Shown here in pieces: positions 1,356-18,968 of a stretch of DNA of 33,570 bases (position 1 is the stretch's first letter; every line of letters starts with the position of its first letter). The notes beneath the pieces are model-generated. The model did no database searches. It worked only from the letters and a program-made list of their open reading frames with translations, and had not been told where the DNA came from. This stretch comes from Pseudomonadota bacterium. GTDB taxonomy: Bacteria > Myxococcota_A > UBA9042. Both the position numbers and the translations under genes were made by a program. Where the stretch lies: positions 1 to 33,570 of the forward strand of contig SXNM01000322.1 in NCBI GenBank assembly GCA_005777155.1. Reading direction: 5' to 3'.

Positions 1356-4084
1356 AGGCGCAGCATCAGCCTGAGCGGTTGCTGGCGAGGCGGCCGTCAC
1401 GGCCAGCCCATGGATTCGCATGGCGCGGCGGCCGGTTCAACGGCTGGCGCAGCGGCTGGCGCAGCGGCTGGCGCGGCGTCTGGTTCGGTGTCTGGCTCGC
1501 TGTCGGCGCAGCTACCGCCGCCACGCCGGCGACGCCGGCGACGGCGGCGCCGAGCGGCGCCAAAGCCGCGGCCGAGAGCGTCGTGCCGCCGGCGCTGGTG
1601 GAAGAGGCTGTCCCGGTCTACCCGGCGACGATGCGGGGGCGTGGCCTTGCCGGCCGGGTCGTCGTCGAGCTCGACATCGACGCCACCGGCGCCGTGCGCC
1701 AACCCAAGGTCGTGGAATCGGCCGGCCCAGACTTTGACGCCGCAGCGCTAGAGGCCGCATCGAGGCTGCGCTTCTCGCCGGCGACCGCGCGCGGCAAGCC
1801 CATCGCGGTGCGGATCCGCTACGCCTTTCGCTTCGACGCCGACCAGCCGCGCCGCGCCCGCAGCGCCGGCCTCGGCGGCTACCCCCGGCGGGAGTTGGAG
1901 CGCAGCATCGCCGGCGCCGTCAGCTTGCGCGGGCTGTTGCGCGAGCTGGGGACCGGCCGACCGGTCGCCGGGGCCCTCGTGATTTTGCCGCGGCTCGGCC
2001 AGGAGACGCTGAGCGAAGCCGACGGCAGCTTCGCGTTCGGCGCCTTGCCGGCAGGCGCCGTGCCGATCGAGGTCCGCAGCCCAGAGCACAAGCCGCTGAC
2101 GGGCTCGACGGGGGTCGCCGACGGCCGGACCACCCGCGTCGAGCTGCGGCTGGAGCGGCGGTCGTACACGGTGTACAGGGCCACCGCGGTGGCGCCGCCG
2201 GCGCCGGGAGAGATGGCGCGTCGCGAGCTGAGCGCCGAGGAGATTCAGCGGGTTCCCGGCGTCTATGGCGACTCCTTCAAGGTGGTGCAGAACCTCCCAG
2301 GCGTGGCGCGGGCGCCGGCGATCTCCGGCGAGATCATCGTGCGCGGCGCGGCGCCGGACGACACCCAGATCCTGATCGAGGGCGTCAGGGTGCCCGCCAT
2401 CTACCACTTCGGCGGCGTCTACTCGGTCATGAACACCGATCTGCTGGAGGGCATCGACTTCTACCCAGGCGGCTTCGCGGCGCGCTACGGCCGCAAGACC
2501 GGTGGCGTCCTCGAGGCCAGGCTGCGTTTGCAGCGCCCCGACGAGGGCTGGCACGGCTACGTAGAGGGCAACGTCTTTCACACCGGCGCCCTGCTGCGTG
2601 GGCCCCTTGGCGCCTCGACCCAGCTCACGCTGGCTGCCCGCCGCTCCTACATCGACGCCGTGTTGACGGCCGTCATCCCCGATGGCGTGCTGCCTTTCAC
2701 GGTCGCGCCGCGCTATTGGGACTACCAGGCCAAGCTCGACCACAGCTTTGGCCGCAACCTCGACGCGACGCTGCTGGTGCTCGGCAGCGACGACGCGCTG
2801 GCGCTGATCATCGACCGGCCGCCGCCCGGATTCGGCAGCGCGAACGCATCCTTGGAGGCCGGCATCAACTTCCACGGCGGCATCGCCCAGCTCCGCTATC
2901 GCGCACCGGGCGTCGAGTCACGCAGCACCCTCGGCGTGGTGCGGTCGGCCGTGGGCTTCGGTTTTGGCGAGTTGTTTCAAGTCGATGCCCACAGCTGGCA
3001 GTTGACGGTCCGGCAAGACGTGCGGCTCTGGCCTGGCGAGGCCGTCGAGCTCCGCTTTGGCCTCGATCTCTTCAACGAGCCCTACGTCGCCGATGTGCGC
3101 TTGCCGCCACAGGCCGCCGACGAGGGCGAAGGCGCGGACGCTGAGGCCGGCCGCCGCGTCTTCACGGTCGACACCAACCTGCTGCAGCCGGCGATCTGGC
3201 TCGACGCGGTCTACCGGCTGCACCCTCGCCTCGAGGTGGTGCCTGGCCTGCGCCTGGACCTCTACCGCGACGCGCTGAGCAGCGAGACGGTGCTGCCGCG
3301 CCTCAACGTCCGCTTCCGGGCCAGCGACGTCCTCACGCTCAAGGCCGCCACAGGCGTGCTGAGCCAAGCGCCCTCGGCAGAACAGGTCGTCGAGCGCTTC
3401 GGCAACCCGAACCTGCTGCCGTTTCGCTCGTTCGAGGTCTCCGGCGGCTTCGAGTGGGCGCTGGGCGACCGCCTGACTTTGGACGTCCAAGGCTTCCGCA
3501 AGCAGCTGTGGGATCGCGTCGTCGGCCCACGCGAGCCATGGCGGACCTTTGCCTGGGAAAACGCCGGGCGCGGCCGCGTCATCGGCCTTGAGCTGCTGGC
3601 GCGGCATCGACCGGTTGGCAATTTCTTCGGCTGGGTCGCCTACACGCTGATGCGCGGCACCGAGACCCCGCACCCGGGCGACGCCGAGCGCCTGCTCCCT
3701 TGGGATCAGACCCACATCTTTACCGCCGTCGGTTCATATCGCTTGCCCTTCAATTGGGAGGCCTCCGCCCGCTTCCGCCTCGTCTCCGGCAACCCGTACA
3801 CCGGCATCGGCACGGCGGTGTTCAATGCCAACGACGCCGACTACGTCTCCGTCGACTCGGCGTGCCTGCAGTGCGAGCGGTTGCCGACTTTCCACCAGCT
3901 CGACTTGCGCATTGATCGCAAATTCATTTGGGAGAGCTGGATGTTGGCAGTCTACCTCGACGTCCAGAACGTCTACAACCGCCAGAACCCGGAGTCGATC
4001 AACTACAACTTCGACTACCAACTCAGCGCCTACCAGGCCCTGCTGCCGATCATCCCGAGCATCGGGATGCGCGGGGAATTCTAA
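1352..4084 (+). CDS. TonB-dependent outer-membrane receptor with an N-terminal TonB C-terminal-like domain and a carboxypeptidase-regulatory-like domain
   Basis: TonB_C-like segment PPALVEEAVPVYPATMRGRGLAGRVVVELDIDATGAVRQPKVVESAGPDFDAAALEAASRLRFSPA; CarboxypepD_reg-like GRPVAGALVILPRLGQETLSEADGSFAFGALPAG; plug-like ELSAEEIQRVPGVYGDSFKVVQNLPGVAR...IIVRGAAPDDTQILIEGVRVPAIYHFGG; long beta-barrel. Confidence 0.9.
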   Translation: MKAQHQPERLLARRPSRPAHGFAWRGGRFNGWRSGWRSGWRGVWFGVWLAVGAATAATPATPATAAPSGAKAAAESVVPPALVEEAVPVYPATMRGRGLAGRVVVELDIDATGAVRQPKVVESAGPDFDAAALEAASRLRFSPATARGKPIAVRIRYAFRFDADQPRRARSAGLGGYPRRELERSIAGAVSLRGLLRELGTGRPVAGALVILPRLGQETLSEADGSFAFGALPAGAVPIEVRSPEHKPLTGSTGVADGRTTRVELRLERRSYTVYRATAVAPPAPGEMARRELSAEEIQRVPGVYGDSFKVVQNLPGVARAPAISGEIIVRGAAPDDTQILIEGVRVPAIYHFGGVYSVMNTDLLEGIDFYPGGFAARYGRKTGGVLEARLRLQRPDEGWHGYVEGNVFHTGALLRGPLGASTQLTLAARRSYIDAVLTAVIPDGVLPFTVAPRYWDYQAKLDHSFGRNLDATLLVLGSDDALALIIDRPPPGFGSANASLEAGINFHGGIAQLRYRAPGVESRSTLGVVRSAVGFGFGELFQVDAHSWQLTVRQDVRLWPGEAVELRFGLDLFNEPYVADVRLPPQAADEGEGADAEAGRRVFTVDTNLLQPAIWLDAVYRLHPRLEVVPGLRLDLYRDALSSETVLPRLNVRFRASDVLTLKAATGVLSQAPSAEQVVERFGNPNLLPFRSFEVSGGFEWALGDRLTLDVQGFRKQLWDRVVGPREPWRTFAWENAGRGRVIGLELLARHRPVGNFFGWVAYTLMRGTETPHPGDAERLLPWDQTHIFTAVGSYRLPFNWEASARFRLVSGNPYTGIGTAVFNANDADYVSVDSACLQCERLPTFHQLDLRIDRKFIWESWMLAVYLDVQNVYNRQNPESINYNFDYQLSAYQALLPIIPSIGMRGEF

Positions 4085-4088
4085 GCCA

Positions 4089-4955
4089 ATGACGGACACC
4101 GATGGCAAGGGCGGCGGCCTCGGGCCGAGCGACCACAATGGCGGCGTCGGCGGCTTTCTCTACGTGTACCCGGTGGTCTCAAGGCGCGCCGGCGGCGTCT
4201 CTATCGGCGTCAACCTGAACCCCAATAAGGCCTGCAACTACCGCTGCCTCTACTGCCAGGTCGAGGGCCTGAGCCGCGGCAAGGGTCCCGCCATCGACGT
4301 CGCCCTGCTGCGAGATGAGCTCCACGCGATGCTGGAGTGGCTACAACGCGGCGACTTCTATGAGCGGTGGGTGCCCGAGCCGGCGCGTAGCCTGCGCGAC
4401 GTTGCGTTCTCGGGCGACGGCGAGCCGACGAGCGGCCCAGACTTCGCGCCGGCGGCCGAGGCGGTGCTCGACGTGCTGGCGGCCCGCGGCCTCGCGACGC
4501 TGCCGGTCGTGCTGATCAGCAACGGCACGCTGCTGCACAAGGCGACTGCGCAGCGCGGATTGCGGCTGCTCGGCGCTGGCAGCGGTCGCCTATGGTTCAA
4601 GCTCGACGCCGGCCGCGACGCCGATCTGCGCCGCATCCACGACAGCGCCGTGTCGCTCGCCACCCTGCGCCGCAACCTCCGGCTCGCCGCGCCGCTGCTG
4701 CCGACGTGGATCCAGACCTGTGCCTTTGGGCTCGACGGCGAGGCGCCGACTGAGGCGTGGGCGACGGCCTGGCTGGCCGCGCTGCAGGGAGAGCTCAGCG
4801 CCGGCACCCCGCTGCAGGGCGTGCTGCTGTACAGCGTCGCCCGCAGGTCTTACCAGCCGGAGGCGCCACGGCTGCAGCAGATGTCGGCGGAGTGGTTGGA
4901 GTCGCTGGCGGTGCGGGTGCGCGCCCTCGGGCTCGACTGCGAGGCGCATCCCTGA
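4089..4955 (+). CDS. Radical SAM domain protein
   Basis: CNYRCLYC (CxxxCxxC) motif and FSGDGEPT motif. ATG 4089 is 4 nt after the receptor stop. The ORF track extension to 3825 overlaps the receptor. Confidence 0.88.
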   Translation: MTDTDGKGGGLGPSDHNGGVGGFLYVYPVVSRRAGGVSIGVNLNPNKACNYRCLYCQVEGLSRGKGPAIDVALLRDELHAMLEWLQRGDFYERWVPEPARSLRDVAFSGDGEPTSGPDFAPAAEAVLDVLAARGLATLPVVLISNGTLLHKATAQRGLRLLGAGSGRLWFKLDAGRDADLRRIHDSAVSLATLRRNLRLAAPLLPTWIQTCAFGLDGEAPTEAWATAWLAALQGELSAGTPLQGVLLYSVARRSYQPEAPRLQQMSAEWLESLAVRVRALGLDCEAHP

Positions 4956-5173: not shown

Positions 5174-6502
5174 CTACTTCGGCGGGCTCGCCAGGGTCCA
5201 AGCGAAGCCGCTGCAGCCCTTGCCGCTGAGGTCCTTGGCGTCTGCCGCTGGCGGCGCCTCGGCTGCCTCTTTGGCGCTCGCCTTGCCAAAGACCTCGATG
5301 CAGAAGTGGAAGCTGCCGGCCACGGGCGCGGTCCAGACCACGCGCGAGAACTGATTCGGCGTGTAGGGATCGTCGGCGGGGCTCTGCAAGATTGCGATGC
5401 GCTTCTGGTTGTTGAACTCGCGCAGCCACGCAAAACTCCAGGCCATGCCGTCGATGTGCTCCAGCGTGCCGAAGGGCGTGGTGTACGCGCCCTTCAGGGC
5501 CAGCGCCGAAAGCCGGGTCCACGGGAAGCCGCCGCAGCCTTTGCCGTCGAGGTCGCTGGCGTCGGCGGTCTCGGTAGCAGACTCGGCGAGCTGCGCGCTG
5601 TCCTTGCCAAAGGCGACGACGCAATAGTGGAAGGCGCCATCCTGGATGGGGGTCCATTCCACGCGATTGAACTTGCTGGGGTTGAAGGCGTCGTCCTTGG
5701 CGTTGCGAGTGATAACGACGCGCTTGCCATTGTCCCACGACACCGCCTGCGCCCAGCCGACGCGCTCGGCGTCAAACCGCTCTGCGCCGCCGAACGCGCT
5801 CTGCCAGACGCCGGCGGGCTCTGGCCGGGAGATTTTCGTCCAGGGAAAGCCGCCGCAGCCTTTGCCGTCGAGGTCCTGTGGGTTGGCCTTGCCGGCAGCC
5901 GCGACCGCCGCGCTGGCGGACGCAAGGCCGCTCTGTGACTCGCAGAACGCCGCGACGCCGACCCCGACGTCGGCGACGTCGATGCGGGCGAACTTGCCGG
6001 GGTTGTACGGATCGTCCTTGGGCCGCTGGATGACGACGTAGCCCTTGGCGGCGTCCCAGGTGACGATCGACGCCGAGGCCGACCAGCCATCTCCCTGCGA
6101 GAGCCAGCGGTAGGCGCCAATGGTCTCGAGGCTACCGAAGTTGCTGCGCCAGATGCCTGACCAGGGCAGGAGCGCGGCCGGCGCTTTGGGCTCCGTGGCG
6201 CCGCCGGCGTCGGCCATCGCGCCGTCAGCGTTGGCGTGGCTACCGGCGTCGCTGCCGGCGTCGCTGCCGGCGTCGCCGCTGACATCGCTGCCGACATCGC
6301 TGCCGGCGTCGCTGCTCACGGCGTCGCCTTGGGCGTCTCCGCTGCCATCGGCGCTGCCGTCTTGCGCAGCGGCGTCCGTCGGCCCCGCGCCTGCGCTTGC
6401 CCCGCCAGCGTCGGCGGCACCTTCACACGCCGACGTCACTGCTGCAGCCAGAAAGATCATCGCACATCGCGCCGAAATCGACCCAAGTCGTCGCTGACTC
6501 AC
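5174..6502 (-). CDS. Secreted lipoprotein with three tandem ~105-aa repeats and a D/S/G-rich linker
   Basis: GTG start at 6502 preceded by GAGGAGG. N-terminus MSQRRLGSISARCAMIFLAAAVTSACEG has a lipobox-like TSAC. Three repeats each end in a GKGCGGFPWT-type motif (DLDGKGCGGFPWTKI / DLDGKGCGGFPWTRL / DLSGKGCSGFAWTLA). Confidence 0.85.
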   Translation of the reverse strand: MSQRRLGSISARCAMIFLAAAVTSACEGAADAGGASAGAGPTDAAAQDGSADGSGDAQGDAVSSDAGSDVGSDVSGDAGSDAGSDAGSHANADGAMADAGGATEPKAPAALLPWSGIWRSNFGSLETIGAYRWLSQGDGWSASASIVTWDAAKGYVVIQRPKDDPYNPGKFARIDVADVGVGVAAFCESQSGLASASAAVAAAGKANPQDLDGKGCGGFPWTKISRPEPAGVWQSAFGGAERFDAERVGWAQAVSWDNGKRVVITRNAKDDAFNPSKFNRVEWTPIQDGAFHYCVVAFGKDSAQLAESATETADASDLDGKGCGGFPWTRLSALALKGAYTTPFGTLEHIDGMAWSFAWLREFNNQKRIAILQSPADDPYTPNQFSRVVWTAPVAGSFHFCIEVFGKASAKEAAEAPPAADAKDLSGKGCSGFAWTLASPPK

Positions 6503-6721
6503 CGCATCCTCCTCTGGGAGGCGGCGCTGGCGCGGGCCCGCGGGCTGAGACGGGGAGCCCCCGCCGACGCCGGATTGGATGCGTTCGCGTGCCGCAGCGC
6601 GATGCAGACGCGCCGAGGCTGCCGCAGCGACTCCGCCCCTGACGAGACGGCGGCTGCGGACTCAAGCGATGCGACCCCTGATCCTCGGGGGCCCTGCCGC
6701 CAGCGCGATGCCAGCGGTGAC

Positions 6722-6895
6722 GCATCTTGGAGTTCCCGACTCGAGGCGACGCAGGCGCAGGCCCTTGTCTTCGCCTCACACGGTTGCGGGCCAGCGCCGG
6801 ATTTGCACCGGACTTCCTCCGTGCTCTGCGCGTGGCCGGACATGGCTCCGCGGGCACGGTGGCGTTTTGCACGTTCAGAGCGGCGCGCGCAAGTG
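6722..6895 (-). promoter_or_regulatory. Cobalamin-riboswitch-like RNA element, 5' of the triple-repeat lipoprotein gene
   Basis: Minus strand reads CCGTGCCCGCGGAGCCATGTCCGGCCACGCGCAGAGCACGGAGGAAGTCCGGTGCAAATCCGGCGCTGGCCCGCAACCGTGTGAGGCGAAGACAAGGGCCTGCGCCTGCGTCGCCTCGAGTCGGGAACTCC. It matches the conserved core GGGAA..CCGGUGnAAnUCCGGnGCUGnCCCGCAACnGU. Supporting stems: CCGTGC/GCACGG, CCGG/CCGG around TGCAAAT, and GAGGCGA/TCGCCTC. Outer limits are approximate. Confidence 0.82.
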
Positions 6896-7056
6896 CAGGC
6901 GAAGCGACGGCGGTGAGGTGCCGGTGGCCGCGGCGTCGCCATGAGAGCGCCGCTTCGACGCCGGTGGCGCCTGGCGAGATTGAACGCGGTGACGCTTTCG
7001 CCGACGCTCGGTGTTCAAGGAGGTGGCCCGTCACTTGGGCCGAGCACGAGGTCGCC

Positions 7057-7539
7057 TTGAGTATCGACACCGCAGCGCTGTACCAACGATACGGGCCCAT
7101 GGTCCTACGTCGCTGTCGGCGCCTGCTCGGCGATGAGGAGGCCGCACGCGACGCGATGCAGGACACGTTCGTCCGCCTGCTCGACGCCCCAGACCGCCTC
7201 GACGAGGCAGCGCCGAGCAGCCTGCTCTGGACCACAGCGACGCGGGTCTGCCTCAACCGCCTGCGCAGCCAACGGCGACGGCCGGAGGTCCAAGGCGGCG
7301 ACCTGCTCCTGCGCCTCGCCACCGCCGATGACCTCGAAGGCGAGAGCGCTGCGCGCGCCGTGCTGCAGCGCCTCTTTGGCCGAGAGCCGGAGAGCACCAG
7401 GACCATCGCGGTGCTGCACCTGCTCGATGGCATGACGCACGAAGAGGTCGCGGAGTTGGTTGGGCTCTCGGTGTCGGGTGTCCGCAAGCGCCTTCGGACG
7501 CTGCGCGAGCGCCTGTTGGCTCTGGAGGTAGCGGCATGA
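7057..7539 (+). CDS. RNA polymerase ECF-type sigma-70 family factor
   Basis: LYQRYGPMVLRRCRRLLGDEEAARDAMQDTFVRLL (region 2) and MTHEEVAELVGLSVSGVRKRLRTLRERL (region 4 HTH). Probable TTG start at 7057 with upstream CGAGG. ATGA overlap with the next gene. Confidence 0.85.
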   Translation: MSIDTAALYQRYGPMVLRRCRRLLGDEEAARDAMQDTFVRLLDAPDRLDEAAPSSLLWTTATRVCLNRLRSQRRRPEVQGGDLLLRLATADDLEGESAARAVLQRLFGREPESTRTIAVLHLLDGMTHEEVAELVGLSVSGVRKRLRTLRERLLALEVAA

Positions 7540-8498
7540 AAGGAATGAGCGGAGGCCGCGCGGCCGCGCAGAGCGAGCTGGAGGCGGCGACGGAGGGGCA
7601 CGTGAGCGACTGGACCTTGGAGCGGCTCGTCCTCGGCGAGCTGCCGGCAGCGCAGGTCGAGCGGCTGCGAACGCTGGCGGCGATCGACGTCTCGCTGCAG
7701 GCGCGGATCGACGCCTTGATCGCCGATAACCTGCGGACGCTGACGGCGATGCCGCCGGCCGAGACCGCTGCGGCGATAGCGCGGCGACGACACCTGAGCA
7801 AGGTGACTCGGGTCGCGGCCGCGCGGTCGAGCCAGCGACGGTGGCACGGCTGGGCGGTGATTGGGACGCCAGCGCTGCTCGCTGCCGGCATCACCGGGCT
7901 GTGGATGCGGTCGGCGCCTGTGGCCGAAGAGGCGACGTGGGCTGGCAACGGCGCCGGGTCGGAGCTCGCCGAACGGGCCAAGGGCGGGCCGAGCGCACCG
8001 CAGTCGCTGACGGTCTTTCGCAAGCGGGGCCAGCAGCTAGAGCGGCTGAGTGACGGCGTCACGGCTCAGGCTGGTGACCTGCTGCAGGTGGCCGTGCGGA
8101 GCGAGACGGTGCAGCGCTGCGCCGTGGTCTCTGTCGACGGCGATGGTACAGTGACGCGGCACCTGCCGGAGGAGGGCGAGACGCCGCTGACCGTGAACCC
8201 AGGCGAGTCCCCGCAGTCGGCGCACGCGTATGAGCTCGATGACGCGCCGCGCTACGAGCGCTTTGTGTTGGCTTGCGGGCCAACGCCATTCGCCGTCGGC
8301 GCGCTCGTCCGGGCCGTGCAGGACGCCAACCGGCGCGGCGGCGCCTCCATGCCGACGTTGCCGGGTGTGGCCGTGCAGACCCTGACGCTGCGAAAGCCGG
8401 GGGCGACGGCGCCAGCTGCTATCGAGGCGCTGCCGGGCGCGGCCTTGGCGCCGCAGGGTGGTCTCGCAGCGCCAGCCGGCACGGCGGAGGCGCCATGA
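7536..8498 (+). CDS. Single-pass membrane protein, putative anti-sigma / ActD-like protein
   Basis: N-terminal cytoplasmic segment (LERLVLGELPAAQVERLRTLAAID...), then TM WAVIGTPALLAAGITGLWM, then a periplasmic domain. Immediately follows the sigma factor with an ATGA overlap. Confidence 0.7.
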   Translation: MKGMSGGRAAAQSELEAATEGHVSDWTLERLVLGELPAAQVERLRTLAAIDVSLQARIDALIADNLRTLTAMPPAETAAAIARRRHLSKVTRVAAARSSQRRWHGWAVIGTPALLAAGITGLWMRSAPVAEEATWAGNGAGSELAERAKGGPSAPQSLTVFRKRGQQLERLSDGVTAQAGDLLQVAVRSETVQRCAVVSVDGDGTVTRHLPEEGETPLTVNPGESPQSAHAYELDDAPRYERFVLACGPTPFAVGALVRAVQDANRRGGASMPTLPGVAVQTLTLRKPGATAPAAIEALPGAALAPQGGLAAPAGTAEAP

Positions 8499-10766
8499 CC
8501 TGGCGCGGCGCGCGGCGCTGGCTGAGCCGCTCCGCCTGGCCGTCGCCAGGGTCGTCGCCGACGCGCCGGGTGAGGCCATCGTCGGTCGCCGCGGCGCTGG
8601 TGGCCCTGTTCCTCGCGGTCCTCGTGACCGTGCCGCGTGCCGGTGTGGCAGACGCTCCGGCCTCTGGCCTACGACGCCTGGCCGTGGTCGCAGGGAGCAA
8701 CGACGGCGGCGCCGAGCGGGTGCGGCTGCGCTTCGCCAACAGCGACGCGCTGTCGATGGCGTCGGTGCTGCAGGGCTTCGGCGGCGTGCAAGGCCAGGAT
8801 CTCTGGCGTGTCTCTGACGCGACGGCCGCCACGCTGCGGCACGCGATCGCGCAGGCAGGCGCCGCGGCGGCCGCTGCGCGCCTCGGACTGCGGCGAGGCC
8901 AGCAGCGGGTCGAGGTCGTGCTCTACTACTCGGGCCACTCCGATGAAGAGGGCTTGCTGCCGGCCGGTGAGCTCGTGCGCTACGCGGAGCTGCGGTCGGC
9001 GCTGGCGGCGCTTCAGGTTGATGTTCGCATCGCGATCCTGGACTCGTGCGCCTCGGGCGCGCTGATCCGCGGCGAGGGTGGCACGCGGCGGCCGCCCTTC
9101 CTCTACGATCAGAGCTCGCAGGTGCGAGGCCACGCCTATCTCACCTCTGCCTCGGCCGATGAGGCAGCGCAGGAGTCTGACCGCATCGGCGCGAGCTACT
9201 TCACCCACCACCTCGTGACCGGGCTGCGAGGCGCCGCCGACGTCGATCGCGACCGCCGCGTTACGCTGTCTGAGGCCTACCAGTAAGCCTTTCACGCCAC
9301 CTTGGACACCACGCAGAAGAGCATGCGGGGTCCGCAGCATCCGAACGATGACTTCGAGCTGGCAGGCTCGGGCGACGTGGTGATCACCGACCTGAGCGTC
9401 GCAGGCGCCATGCTGGTCCTCGACCGCGGCGCGGCGGGCCGGTTCTTTGTCCGCGACGCCGGCGGTCGCCTGGCCGCCGAGCTGGACAAGGTGCCGGGCC
9501 GCTCCAGTGAGCTTGGCCTCGATCCTGGCCGCTACCGGGTGGAGCTGCGGCGCGATCAGCGCGTCTGGGAGGCCGAGATCGTGGTGCAGCAGGGCAAGCG
9601 CTCGGTGGTCGACACCGCGGCGATGCGGCCGATGGAGCTGGCGCAGACGCGGGCCCGCGGTGGAGCGGCCGGTGGCCAGGCGGGGCTGGACTCGCCCTGG
9701 ACACAGCGGTCGGCGCGCGTTCCGACGTGGAGTCTGCCGGGAGCGTCCCGCTCGAGCGGCGCGGTGCCGTTCAACGTGTCGGTTCTGCCGGGGCTCTCGC
9801 TCTACGGCACGGACAGGCACGTCACCGATCTGTCGCTGAACCTCATCGCCGGCCTGAACGGTTCGATCAGCGGGCTGGAGGCTGCGACCGTCCTCAACGT
9901 GACCCGGGGCGACATGCGCGGCACGCAGATCGCCGGCGCAGGCAACGCCATCGGCGGACACGTCATTGGGGGTCCAGCTCGCCGGCTCCTTCAATTTTGC
10001 CGGCGGCGATGTCGACGGCTTCCAGGTCGCCGGCGGCGCCAACTTCGCCGGTGACGTCCGAGGTGGGCAGATCGCCGGCGCGATCAACATCGCGCGTGGG
10101 CCGGTGCGGGGATTCCAGGCCGCGGCGCTGCTGAACCTGGGCGGCGACCTCGCCGGCGCCCAAGTGGGGATGCTCAACGTCGCGGCCCGGCTCGATGGGG
10201 CGCAGCTGGGACTGGTCAATGTCGCCGGCGCCTCGGAGGGCCTACAGCTGGGGCTCATCAACGTCGCCACTGGGCCAGAGGCCGAGACTTTTGGGCTGCT
10301 GAGCTTCGTGCAGAACGGCTACAATCACTTAGAATTCTGGCTCTCCGACAGCACCATGGCGAGCGCAGGGATCAAGTTCGGTGGCCGACATATGTATACG
10401 ATCCTGGCGGTCGGCTACGGCTATCAGCGGAGGGACGCCTGGGAGGCGGCGATGGGTTGGGGCCTGCACTTCAACCTCGGCGGCCGATTCTACCTCGACA
10501 CCGATGCGCTTTTTGGCTCGCGCTGGCGACAGCGGGAGGGTGTTGAGACGGGTCCAGCGCCGCAGGATGCGCTGGTGCGGTTCCGGGCGAGCCTGGGCGT
10601 CAGGCTGTTCTCGAAGGCGAGCATGTTCATCGGGTCTGGCGTGACGATCGCCACGACGTTGCCTTCGCAGGAGCCTGTGGCGCCGCGGTGCTGTGGCCGT
10701 GTCGTGCAGGAAGAGGATCGGGTCGTATCAGTCGGGCCGGCGCTCTTTGCGGGACTGCAGTTTTGA
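8495..10766 (+). pseudogene. Caspase-like (peptidase C14) protein with a C-terminal LA_2272-type surface-repeat/barrel region, interrupted by an in-frame TAA and a 1-nt frameshift
   Basis: Caspase His motif VVLYYSGHSDEEG and Cys motif IAILDSCASGA. In-frame TAA 9284-9286 (EAYQ*AFHATLDTTQKSMRGPQHP...). A G5 run at 9968-9972 shifts the frame (GNAIGGHVIG / VQLAGSFNFAGGDVDGFQ). The downstream frame runs to TGA at 10766. Confidence 0.8.
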
Positions 10767-15091: not shown

Positions 15092-18000
15092 CTACAGGAT
15101 CGGCGCTGACTTCGGCGTCACCGTCCCCATGTCGACATAGGCGCCGTCCTGCATGATGACGAACGCCCGGCTCTCAAAGCCGAGGCCGCCCTTGCCGTCG
15201 TGGCGAATCACCTGCACGCGGCCCATGCCAAAGCCCATCGGCCCGCGGCTGTAATAATGCGCCAGCAGGCGATAGGGATAGGCGCTCAGCTGGTCGATCC
15301 TGAAGCACTCGGGACCGTAGCCGGTGGTGATGTCGGCGTAGAGCTCGCCGCCGCTTTGGAGGCTGGAGTCCCGAAACGAGGCGTGGTCAAAGTCCTTGTC
15401 GAAGATGTGGAAGTCGACGTCGTTGGCGTCGGTCTCCCACGAGACGACGAAGCGTAGCGAGGGCGAGATCGCTTGCACGTTCCCGGCCTTGGCCGACTTC
15501 ACGGCGCGGATGATCTGCTCGTCGTCGTTGAGGATACGCATGACGCCGGCAGGGCTGCGCCAACGAGGCTCCTCCTTGCGCGCCCGCTCGATGGCGGCGA
15601 GCGCCCCGTCGTAGTCGCCACGTCGGGCCAGCGCCATCGCTAGGTTGTGGAAGCCGCTGGGATGATCCGGTCGCTGGTCGCCGGCCGCGAAGTAGGTATC
15701 AGCCGCCAGCTGATCTCCGGCACCTCTTTGCGCTCGATGAGATTGCCGGCGAAACGGCGTAGGTCGGCGCGCGAGGGGAACATATCGATGAGCGAACCGT
15801 ACGCGCGGGCGGCCTGGCGCGGATCGTCCATGGCCTCAAAGACCTCGCCGAGGGCGACCAGAGCCAAGATGTCGCCGACCTCTTCTTGGCTCCAGGCCCA
15901 CGCCTCGGCGAGCGCGGACGTGCGCTTGTTGGCCTCAATCAGCCCGCGGGTCTTGGCGTAGCGCCCGGTGACGTTCGGCGTGTTGGCGATGCCGGCCTCA
16001 AGCTCGCTGAGCTCGCGCTTGCGCTGTTCGAGCGCTTCGATCCTCTCGCGCTCGGCCGCCAGGCGTTGGCGCTCCTCCTCCGCGCGCGCTGCTGCGGCCG
16101 CAGCCTCGGCCCATTGTCGTTCGAGCTCCGCTTGCTGACGCCCAAGCGCGGCCTGCTGGGCAGCCAAGTGCTTGCGGGCGCGTTCGAGCGCAGCGTACAC
16201 CCTTCATACCAATGGTGAACTGGACAGTCACCTTGCCGGAAACACCCGGGTCAACGCGAAGCACCTGCTCGTAGCAGCGCTGAATCGCCGACCTCTTGCG
16301 AGGCAGGATCTTGTCGACCTTCGCCCTGCCGTCTGGATCCGATCCGCCAGCCAGCCTGCCTTGGATCACTTGGGCGCGATCGTGGCGTTGCTGTGGCTCG
16401 CCGAGCTCGGCTCTCTCTCGTTGCCACCTGCCAACGACCAATCCGCCGTCGCGCTGCGCCTTCTCGACAGTGCCTCCTCGGCCCCCCGACGCCTCCCTCC
16501 GCGCCCCGCTCCCAGGCCCAGTTTCCTCGCCTGCTTTGCCGGCCTCGCCGAATTCACGATTGATGAACCCTGGTGCCTCATCGTCTCCGTCATCGCCAAA
16601 AATTTGGCGATGCAACCCATTCATGTCGGAACCTGGCAACACACTGAACTTGCTGTTTCTTTCCATCGCCGCCACTTCCGGTCGGGGAGGCTCTCTCGTG
16701 ATGTCTGGCCTGCGCTCTGCCAGCGGCGCCGCTGCCGGCGGCAGAGCGGGTGCGGCCTGGGCGAGGGGCTCGTTGCCGTCGTCCAGCTCCAGCCGCCCTG
16801 GCCGCACCGCCGCTTCAGCCTCGTCCTTTCGGGCGGCCGAATCGCTCTCGGCGTTCTTCGGCAGATCGGCGAGTGCCCCCTCATGCAGGCTCTTTCGGTC
16901 CATGTGAACGACGCGGCCCGACTTCGAGATCGACAGCACGTCCGAAAGGGCCGTCCGGTCAAGCTTGTAGCGGTCGTAGTCCTTTTCGGTCTCCAGGACC
17001 AAGAGCGCCGTCAGATCCGACAGGACGCGGTGGGTGGTCGAGAGTTTGAGCGCCTGGGCCTTGGCCACCGGCCGCGTGTCGGGGTCGCCGAACTCGCTGT
17101 CGTAGAGCAAGCGCCGAATGCGCGCTGCCACCCAGGCGCGCTGCAGCAGGGGACGCGCGGTCGGCGTCATCTTGAGCGAGATCTTCTTCTCCACGCCACC
17201 TTTGAGCTCGAGTTCGATGTTATCGTCGGCGACACCGCCCGCGTCGACCTCGGTATAGATCAGCGCGCTATCGCCCGCCTGCAGGCCCTCGAGGGTGCGC
17301 GGCCAGACCCACGCCGAGCCCGACACCGCGACCTGGATCGGCTTGAAGGTCTGCTGGGCGAGCGCGGCGAAGGCGGCGAAGGCGGCGTCCGCCCCAGTCG
17401 GGACAGCCGTGGCCGAAGGGGTGGCGGCAGCGGTGGCGGCGGCGATCTGCACGTGCACGCCGTCATTGGGCAATCCGGCGGTGGCCCGCGCGCGCAGGAC
17501 GTCGAGGTCGCGGGCGCCGTTGCTCTCGAGGGTGTCGAGGCGGGTCACGCCGGCGGCGCCGAGCGCGCGAGCGCTCGAACGCAAGGCGTCGATGGAACGC
17601 GGGCCGGCGGTGGCGATGCCGTTGCCGAAGAGCAAGACGCGCGCGTTCTTGGGACCCGCGCTGTCCGCCTCGCCCTCTGCCCCGCCTTTGGCGAGGAGCT
17701 TGGCGGCGGCCGCGAGGGCCCGGCTGTAGTCGGAGGCGCCGAGCGGGCCGCGCGCCTCGAGCGTCGCGCGCTGGGTCTTGCCCCACTCTCCCGGCGGGCC
17801 GTCGTGGATGTCGACGACCTCCTGATCGAACGCCATCACTACGACTTTGCTCGCCTTGTGCGATGCAAGAAACGCCATCAGGCCGTCGAGGTGGTCGAGG
17901 CGTCCCTTGAAGTCGAGCGCCGAAGACGCCGAGGTGTCGAGCATCACGACGACGCGGGCAAAGTCGGCCTCGCTGTCGCCCTTGGGCAGCTGCACGCGCG

Positions 18001-18856
18001 CCAGCACCAGCTCGCCATTGCTTAACGCTTCGTCGCGGCCGCGCACCGCGCTCGGGTGCACGACGACGTCGGCCTGTGGCGCGAAGTCGCGGCGGACGAG
18101 CTCAGCCTTCGCTACCTCCGGGCCATCGCCGGCATCGTCGCCGGCGTTGCCGCCTTTGTCGTTTGGACCGCCAACACCGAACGACTTGGCGCTCGCGCCC
18201 TTGAGGAGGTGGACCGCGACATGCAGGTCCGCGAGCTTGCCGAGGCCTCGCAACGGAAGCACATAGGGCTCATCAGCTGAGGGCAGCTCGCTCGAGAAGC
18301 TGAGGATCAGCTCCTTGACGCCGCTGGCCGGGATCGGAAAGACGCGGGCGCGAAAAGTGTTACCAGCGTCCACCTCGAGCAGCGCCGGATCCTGTTTGCG
18401 ATGCAGGAAGTCCTCGTAGATGCGGTTGGCCTGCTGCTTCTCGACAACCTCACCCTCGCGCCACTCCTCGCCGATCTTCATTGCGAAGCGGCTAACGCCG
18501 GCGCGCGGCGGCAGCGTGATCGAGAAGCGGCCCTCGCGCACGCGAGCCTCTGGGTTGTGAAAGCGCAGCTTCAGCTCTGTGAAGGCCAGCGGCCCGTCGA
18601 TGACTGCCCGCGCCGTCAGCGCCTTGAGCTGCAAGCCGGCGCCGTCGGAGCAGGTCAACGACAGCGGCGGCGCGATCGGCAGGATGTCCGGACGTTCGGC
18701 GGCTCCCTCAGTCGCGGGCTTGAAGTTGTCTTCGTTAAAGAAGACAGGGGCCTTGCCCGGCCACTTGAGCCTGCCACACCCGCTGAAAGAGACCGACAGG
18801 ACGCACGCAAGCGCGAACGTCAGCGCAACATGACGGCACAAAAGTCGATGGGTCAT
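15092..18856 (-). pseudogene. VIT/VWA-domain lipoprotein with an AgmX/PglI-like segment, coiled coil and DUF2135-type C-terminus, split by two frame changes
   Basis: MTHRLLCRHVALTFALACVLSVSFSGCGRLKW lipoprotein start; VIT region (LTARAVIDGPLAFTELKLRFHNPEARVREGRFSITLPPRAGVSRFAMKIGEEWREGEVVEKQQANRIYEDFLHRKQDPALLE); VWA (VVVMLDTSASSALDFKGRLDHL); KRSAIQRCYEQVLRVDPGVSGKVTVQFTIGMKG, then a frame change near 16190-16200 to VYAALERARKHL...; a second near 15727 before AADTYFAAGDQRPDHPSGFHNLAMALARRGDYDGALAAIERA; then SLRFVVSWETDANDVDFHIFDK...YADITTGYGPECFRI. Confidence 0.8.
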
Positions 18857-18968
18857 CGTGGCTCCGTGCCGGACACCGCCGGCAAGTGGCCGTCGATGCA
18901 TCTGGGGCGACGCTAATCACTGCGAGGAGCCTCACCGCAAGGTAAAGCGCCAGCGTCGTGGGACCAGG

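Follow-up and report, generated by a model that had tools for sequence, protein, structure and literature searches.

What is the function of an uncharacterized lipoprotein whose gene appears to be under B12 control? The question is raised by a stretch of 33,570 nucleotides (contig SXNM01000322.1) from a Pseudomonadota bacterium placed by GTDB in Myxococcota_A, referred to here as the window. A previous sequence-only reading had noted a B12-riboswitch core on the minus strand with compensating stems on both sides and, about 220 nt downstream, a GTG-started gene for a 442-aa triple-repeat lipoprotein; it had proposed a corrinoid-handling surface protein. We conclude that the gene probably represents a new modular family of corrinoid-capture lipoproteins under riboswitch control, with corrinoid binding inferred in the absence of binding data. 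What the computation establishes is the presence of the riboswitch, the conservation of its linkage to the lipoprotein family, the identity of the partner genes, and a domain model of high confidence that matches no known fold. The features of the locus are as follows.

6730 to 6819, minus strand: cobalamin riboswitch aptamer (RF00174 model positions 45-169; conserved core, arm covarying in 15 leaders)
6675 to 6691, minus strand: possible conserved hairpin just 3' of the aptamer, CCCCC-GAGGATCA-GGGG (by eye)
6508 to 6521, minus strand: Shine-Dalgarno AGGAGG (6513-6508) in a small CCTCC/GGAGG hairpin (sequence and folds)
5174 to 6502, minus strand: triple-repeat lipoprotein gene, 442 aa, GTG start (ORF, translation, codon-position composition, homologues)
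6425 to 6502, minus strand: signal peptide with lipobox-like VTSAC, Cys26 (translation)
5828 to 6178, minus strand: repeat 1, LIC13354-type domain, residues 109-225 (domain alignment)
5507 to 5827, minus strand: repeat 2, residues 226-332 (domain alignment; AlphaFold2 mean pLDDT 95.2)
5177 to 5506, minus strand: repeat 3, residues 333-442 (domain alignment)

A divergent cobalamin riboswitch in the window

An Rfam cmscan of the entire window at gathering thresholds returned zero matches. A local Rfam scan found a significant RF00174 (Cobalamin) match at 6819-6730 on the minus strand with 30.1 bits and E 8.5e-6, just under the curators' gathering score of 31.5 bits. It is the sole good RF00174 match of the whole genome (4.7 Mb, 59% complete), and it coincides with the B12-riboswitch core noted previously, which runs from 6820 downward; that claim held. 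The core is invariant across 15 aligned leaders from the same taxonomic family (the window's included). RNAalifold predicted 21 pairs in these leaders, seven of which changed on both sides with pairing kept. The P5-like arm of the aptamer covaries, while the two short hairpins preceding it do not vary and are thus uninformative on compensation, so the claim of compensating stems on both sides held only in part.

Compared with the RF00174 consensus, the window element has a similar core, spacing and paired arms, but ACCG...UCGGG (ACCGU/UCGGG) replaces ACUG...CCAGG (ACUGU/CCAGG), a paired change common to the window's relatives and specific to the family, and the outer helices of the window copy are unmatched. 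Other linked RF00174 leaders in the same family (n = 15) score 22-50 bits, 11 of them over the gathering score. Because the relatives' leaders are mostly above threshold, the core is invariant and the arm covaries, we take the window element as real despite its score. We read the sub-threshold score as divergence, and the element is best labelled a divergent RF00174 member; cobalamin binding and a change in expression are inferred. Decay of the window's own copy remains possible and cannot be excluded without binding data.

The leader from the element to the start codon is 227 nt, in agreement with the earlier estimate, and the lipoprotein gene is the first gene downstream. In the family leaders a CCCTCG.GG...GGGG element resembling the 6675-6691 hairpin comes after the aptamer; this may be a regulatory hairpin, a role inferred from inspection by eye. 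The AGGAGG is spaced 5 nt from the GTG. No intrinsic terminator pattern and no sigma-70-like promoter were found in the window leader by pattern search. The minimum-energy fold of the full leader had a z of -0.4 against shuffles and did not reproduce the aptamer; single-sequence folding is uninformative here since it did no better than shuffles and missed the aptamer. In 18 leaders, pairing of the Shine-Dalgarno region was 0.71 versus 0.60 with shuffled upstream sequence (p 0.005), an excess from which translational control in the group might be inferred. In the window leader the Shine-Dalgarno was not paired in excess of shuffles, and we do not claim its sequestration as the expression platform there; intrinsic termination was also rejected since no site was found. 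Five other leaders (L007, L008, L009, L010 and L012) contain a complementary upstream stretch which pairs with the Shine-Dalgarno (e.g., CACCTCGCG...CGCGAGGT), possibly a translational off-switch.

The lipoprotein gene is solitary, as the flanking ORFs on both sides run on the plus strand: an ECF sigma factor gene upstream and a radical-SAM ORF (3825-4952) beyond the other side. The ECF sigma factor gene (ORF 6727-7536, plus strand, true start probably later) is divergent from the riboswitch unit and is followed by a 320-aa ORF without Pfam match (region 6727-8495, plus strand), which could be the partner of the sigma factor. Elsewhere in the window, 16001-18901 (minus strand) encodes a big exported-looking protein carrying a VIT domain.

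The triple-repeat lipoprotein

The protein consists of a signal peptide, a low-complexity linker of about 80 residues and three repeats of about 105 aa each. The three repeats claimed previously were confirmed. The lipobox is less certain: VTSAC-26 satisfies a relaxed pattern only, and a strict lipobox is found in many homologues. Surface exposure of the protein, also proposed, stays an inference. Alignment of 79 domains showed complete conservation of two cysteines and the final tryptophan, and an aromatic residue nearly always present at about ten further positions. No histidine is invariant in the alignment, and there is no conserved cluster of acidic residues that would suit a metal. The two cysteines likely form a disulphide.

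Pfam has no family for the window lipoprotein, nor for the homologues tried. The NCBIfam model LIC13354_fam (NF047669) matched the repeats with E 2.7e-16 and 60.3 bits, under its 130-bit cut-off. The repeats are a clear distant relative of Leptospira LIC13354 and not an NF047669 member by that model. AlphaFold2 predicted repeat 2 as a small, mostly beta domain (107 residues) with a mean pLDDT of 95.2. A Foldseek search of this model against the PDB gave nothing below E 1, and a fold search against viral models gave no match of note. A PDB sequence search with the repeat profile was also negative, with only two noise matches of E above 1. A new fold is possible; this rests on a predicted model, so short a beta domain (107 residues) makes a difficult query and the AlphaFold DB was not covered.

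Linkage of the riboswitch and the lipoprotein family

In a first set of 53 genomes (the window's own and relatives), protein matches were found in 30. A same-strand RF00174 element is located 141-696 nt upstream of 28 of the 34 matches in related genomes, and three of the six exceptions are at contig starts. For a scan of GTDB representatives the earlier family alignment was too diverse to be suitable. A second alignment with the peptide GCGGF[GSP]WT was used, and the 53 loci obtained (numbered with L below) are therefore biased towards members having this peptide; they overlap the first set, with partly the same genomes. These loci span Myxococcota, Bradymonadia such as Lujinxingia, Leptospiraceae and 'Lambdaproteobacteria'. 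Riboswitch positions were re-checked in the DNA, as coordinate-only matching gave a few accidental double matches on small contigs. With positions so verified, a riboswitch is upstream in the same gene row in 44 of the 53 loci. Among the loci without one, L068, L101 and L115 have no more than 406 bases of upstream contig and L112 has 781, and L092 stands behind a TonB receptor truncated at the contig end. Four of the 53 (L089, L107, L108 and L114) are real exceptions with no contig-end excuse.

The domain is also present in 24 of 30 Leptospirales genomes, a set almost independent of the GTDB loci (only the genome of L107 is in common), with a riboswitch on the same strand 256-647 nt upstream of 17 of 26 matches. 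B12 riboswitches before homologues elsewhere, a check proposed in the earlier reading, were thus confirmed in all three sets. About 0.005-0.006 chance coincidences were expected per set. The riboswitch-lipoprotein pairing is not due to chance and is conserved in Myxococcota-like bacteria and Leptospirales. For Leptospira, one paper reports only the elements of btuB and cob (PMC3493377); another gives three elements, the third without a stated place (PMC7567364). The elements described here may be missing from these papers because the Leptospirales matches are mostly under the gathering score.

In most loci the first gene behind the riboswitch encodes the repeat protein, with one to three repeat copies per protein. 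Immediately upstream of the riboswitch-led copy in L078 lies a second LIC13354-type gene (6974-7534), which seems to lack a riboswitch of its own. Two loci carrying the family come from records titled as a Bifidobacterium breve MAG (L091) and a Klebsiella pneumoniae MAG (L102). Since the L091 repeats are identical to those of L090 (uncultured proteobacterium), these contigs are likely misbinned or mislabelled.

Partner genes and other riboswitch loci

In 37 of the 53 loci a LIC13355-type lipoprotein is encoded next to the repeat protein (usually with a few-base overlap) or fused to it. The NCBIfam model NF033170 matched such proteins with E 1.3e-38 (fused protein, L016) and 4.3e-6 (L064). In the window, no LIC13355-type partner or receptor gene adjoins the lipoprotein gene. 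The partner is also missing from other repeat-protein loci (L069, L071, L073, L075 and L109), in which the sequence continues for about 3.5 to 8 kb past the gene. A TonB-dependent receptor is found in four loci, after the lipoprotein in L083, L113 and L096 and before it in L092. Three receptors were scanned: TIGR01779 (TonB-B12) was the top NCBIfam match for those of L113 and L092 and the second for that of L083, behind the myxochelin receptor MxcH, in all three under its cut-off. The receptors in the gene rows thus resemble B12 or siderophore receptors. The window genome contains one weak TonB-B12-like match and proteins with B12-binding domains, at 59% completeness.

Beside the TonB receptors of L092 (1088-2338) and L083 (11625-12881), exported-looking proteins of about 420 aa without Pfam or NCBIfam match are encoded. 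In the riboswitch-led rows of L074 and L093, the gene after the two lipoprotein genes (9421-9894 and 9835-10368, respectively) encodes a small exported Rieske [2Fe-2S] protein, with cluster relatives in L097 and L101. It is conceivable that the Rieske protein performs a redox step on corrinoids, but this is inference only.

We inspected twenty further RF00174 loci of the relatives. Eleven precede TonB-receptor-like proteins as judged by eye, and Pfam Plug was found in all five sampled. Eight lead to a LIC13355-type domain; the LIC13354-type domain comes first in two of these eight, and in one the LIC13355-type protein stands behind a DUF4465 protein. Some riboswitches thus control a LIC13355-type protein without any LIC13354-type one. 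One of the twenty precedes a tandem DUF4465 protein. Both DUF4465 cases are from Myxococcota-class relatives. In genome G035 (L043/L135) the riboswitch is followed by a DUF4465 protein with the motif GMNTPGYF (L043 241-1269) and directly by a LIC13355-type lipoprotein. In genome G038 it is followed by the tandem protein (L134 595-2700, minus strand) with motifs MNTPSYF and MNTPAYF. The DUF4465 family is that of BtuJ; those of its members that have been tested bind B12 and have an NTPxY-type motif in common (PMC12751083, PMC13398666). The G035 arrangement, with the same RNA and the same partner, places this B12-binding family in the slot of the LIC13354-type protein. A LIC13354-type match is absent from all three DUF4465 genomes, a number too small for a statistical claim.

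The partner was modelled from Lujinxingia with a pLDDT of 88.4. The best PDB match of the model is the BtuG1 chain of the BtuB1-BtuG1 complex (8blw, E 3e-4, TM 0.46), followed by discoidin/CBM32 folds, AlyQ among them. A PDB sequence search with the LIC13355-type profile found no match. A BtuH domain is part of BtuG1 (PMC10404256), and BtuH has been described as having AlyQ among its modest structural neighbours (PMC8941943). As a weak fold match of a predicted model, the likeness to BtuG1 is suggestive and not proof. The proposed corrinoid-handling role is supported by the riboswitch linkage and by these partners (LIC13355-type, BtuB-like TonB receptors and DUF4465/BtuJ-type); corrinoid binding itself remains inferred.

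Comparison with known systems

The closest named relatives are LIC13354 (NF047669) and LIC13355 (NF033170) of Leptospira. The two types neighbour each other in most of our loci and, going by locus numbers, in Leptospira too, whereas the window protein has three repeat copies and no LIC13355-type neighbour. In the open-licence literature searched, neither Leptospira protein is assigned a function or connected with B12 (earlier reports elsewhere are not excluded): LIC13354 is listed as hypothetical without a B12 link (PMC3953431), and a paper on LIC_13355 binding does not mention B12 (PMC11891782).

As with BtuJ/DUF4465 (PF14717) of Bacteroides and others, the lipoprotein gene is behind a cobalamin riboswitch, and DUF4465 proteins fill the same place in G035 and G038. 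The LIC13354-type repeat differs from DUF4465 in size and is without a fold match. The window protein has no PF14717 match in Pfam and no NTPxY in its translation, and PF14717 is also absent from this genome. BtuH of B. thetaiotaomicron (BtuH2; the H-domain of BtuG1) is likewise a riboswitch-controlled surface lipoprotein of one binding module, sometimes fused to or preceded by others, and the AlyQ/CBM32 structural neighbour of the LIC13355-type partner is also that of BtuH. However, no sequence similarity to BtuH was found, the TM-score of the partner is only 0.46, and the repeat has no sequence or fold match to a BtuH-type C-terminal domain. With Bacteroides BtuG the repeat protein would share the role, a surface corrinoid catch feeding a TonB receptor, and some loci have similar gene surroundings. 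BtuG is a beta-propeller (PMC8941943) forming a lid of BtuB, in contrast to the 107-residue beta domain of the repeat with no PDB fold match.

Alternative explanations

The strongest alternative is that the repeat lipoprotein takes part in B12 uptake without binding corrinoids, as a scaffold, receptor lid, spacer or vesicle factor, and that the LIC13355-type partner or the receptor binds. In its favour, the riboswitch-controlled BtuL and BtuK2 of B. thetaiotaomicron showed no cobalamin binding (PMC12751083), and the LIC13355-type protein is sometimes under a riboswitch without the LIC13354-type one. Against it, the window and the five partnerless loci listed above have the repeat protein alone, most loci have its gene as the first one after the riboswitch, and the number of repeats ranges from 1 to 3, a variability that a binding module might be expected to show. 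We consider this explanation unlikely.

Even less likely is a role in handling cobalt or some other metal, or in the chemical processing of corrinoids at the envelope, rather than in corrinoid capture. Cobalamin riboswitches also govern cobalt transport genes (cbtA/cbtB in Leptospira, PMC3493377), and the Rieske iron-sulphur protein gene comes next in L074 and L093. However, the repeat lacks an invariant histidine or acidic cluster, its only invariant cysteines are the two that probably form a disulphide, and the receptors in the gene rows look B12- or siderophore-type.

Least likely of all, and in our view very unlikely, is that the RNA element resembles a riboswitch merely by chance or is a degenerate one, with a lipoprotein unrelated to B12. 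The score is under the gathering threshold, and the search turned up neither a sigma-70-like promoter nor an intrinsic terminator pattern, but the leaders are conserved, with covariation and same-strand linkage in distant groups.

Proposed function and significance

Control of the lipoprotein gene by B12 is well supported and likely, with ligand binding by the riboswitch and the expression response inferred. Of what may be asked of a corrinoid-capture lipoprotein, a gene under a cobalamin riboswitch in an arrangement conserved across species is present, and corrinoid binding is inferred. Because the riboswitch pairing recurs, sometimes beside B12-receptor-like genes, we regard the family as a probable B12 catcher. 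Several points count against capture: the repeat is unlike any known corrinoid binder by sequence or fold, neither LIC13354 nor the repeat has binding data, the window has no adjoining partner or receptor gene and its 59% complete genome only a weak TonB-B12-like match, and four of the 53 loci are real exceptions to the riboswitch linkage.

In the proposed mechanism, the riboswitch would turn the gene down when cellular cobamide is plentiful (the off direction is inferred). When cobamide is scarce, the cell would make a lipid-anchored envelope protein, presumably at the surface. Each of its three repeats is a small beta domain rich in aromatic residues, with two invariant cysteines; these repeats would bind corrinoids and hand them to a BtuB-type TonB-dependent receptor. 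In the window the repeat protein would act alone, and in most relatives a LIC13355-type lipoprotein would assist it. The job of Bacteroides BtuG, BtuH and BtuJ would thus be done by an unrelated domain.

A bolder reading, towards which we lean by a narrow margin, is that the LIC13354-type repeat is an undescribed corrinoid-binding domain, single or in tandem, with a fold not in the PDB. Together with the LIC13355-type protein it would form a B12-capture system that Myxococcota-like bacteria have in common with Leptospirales and that parallels BtuG/BtuH/BtuJ without being related to them. The riboswitch-controlled slot for a corrinoid-capture lipoprotein is already known from Bacteroides; what is likely new is the protein that apparently fills it.

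Surface capture of scarce corrinoids outside Bacteroidota is largely unresolved, and this family is a specific, testable candidate that includes the cultured Lujinxingia vulgaris (L082) and has relatives across the whole of Leptospirales. Leptospires are described as B12-requiring (PMC3493377, PMC3953431), and in L. interrogans LIC13354 and LIC13355 were both reported to be up 3.7-fold in host-implanted chambers with btuB unchanged (PMC3953431). Should the predicted fold prove new, it would represent a novel solution to corrinoid binding. If the function is confirmed, these two exported Leptospira proteins of unknown function, one of which has already been studied for binding host components, would become parts of nutrient uptake.
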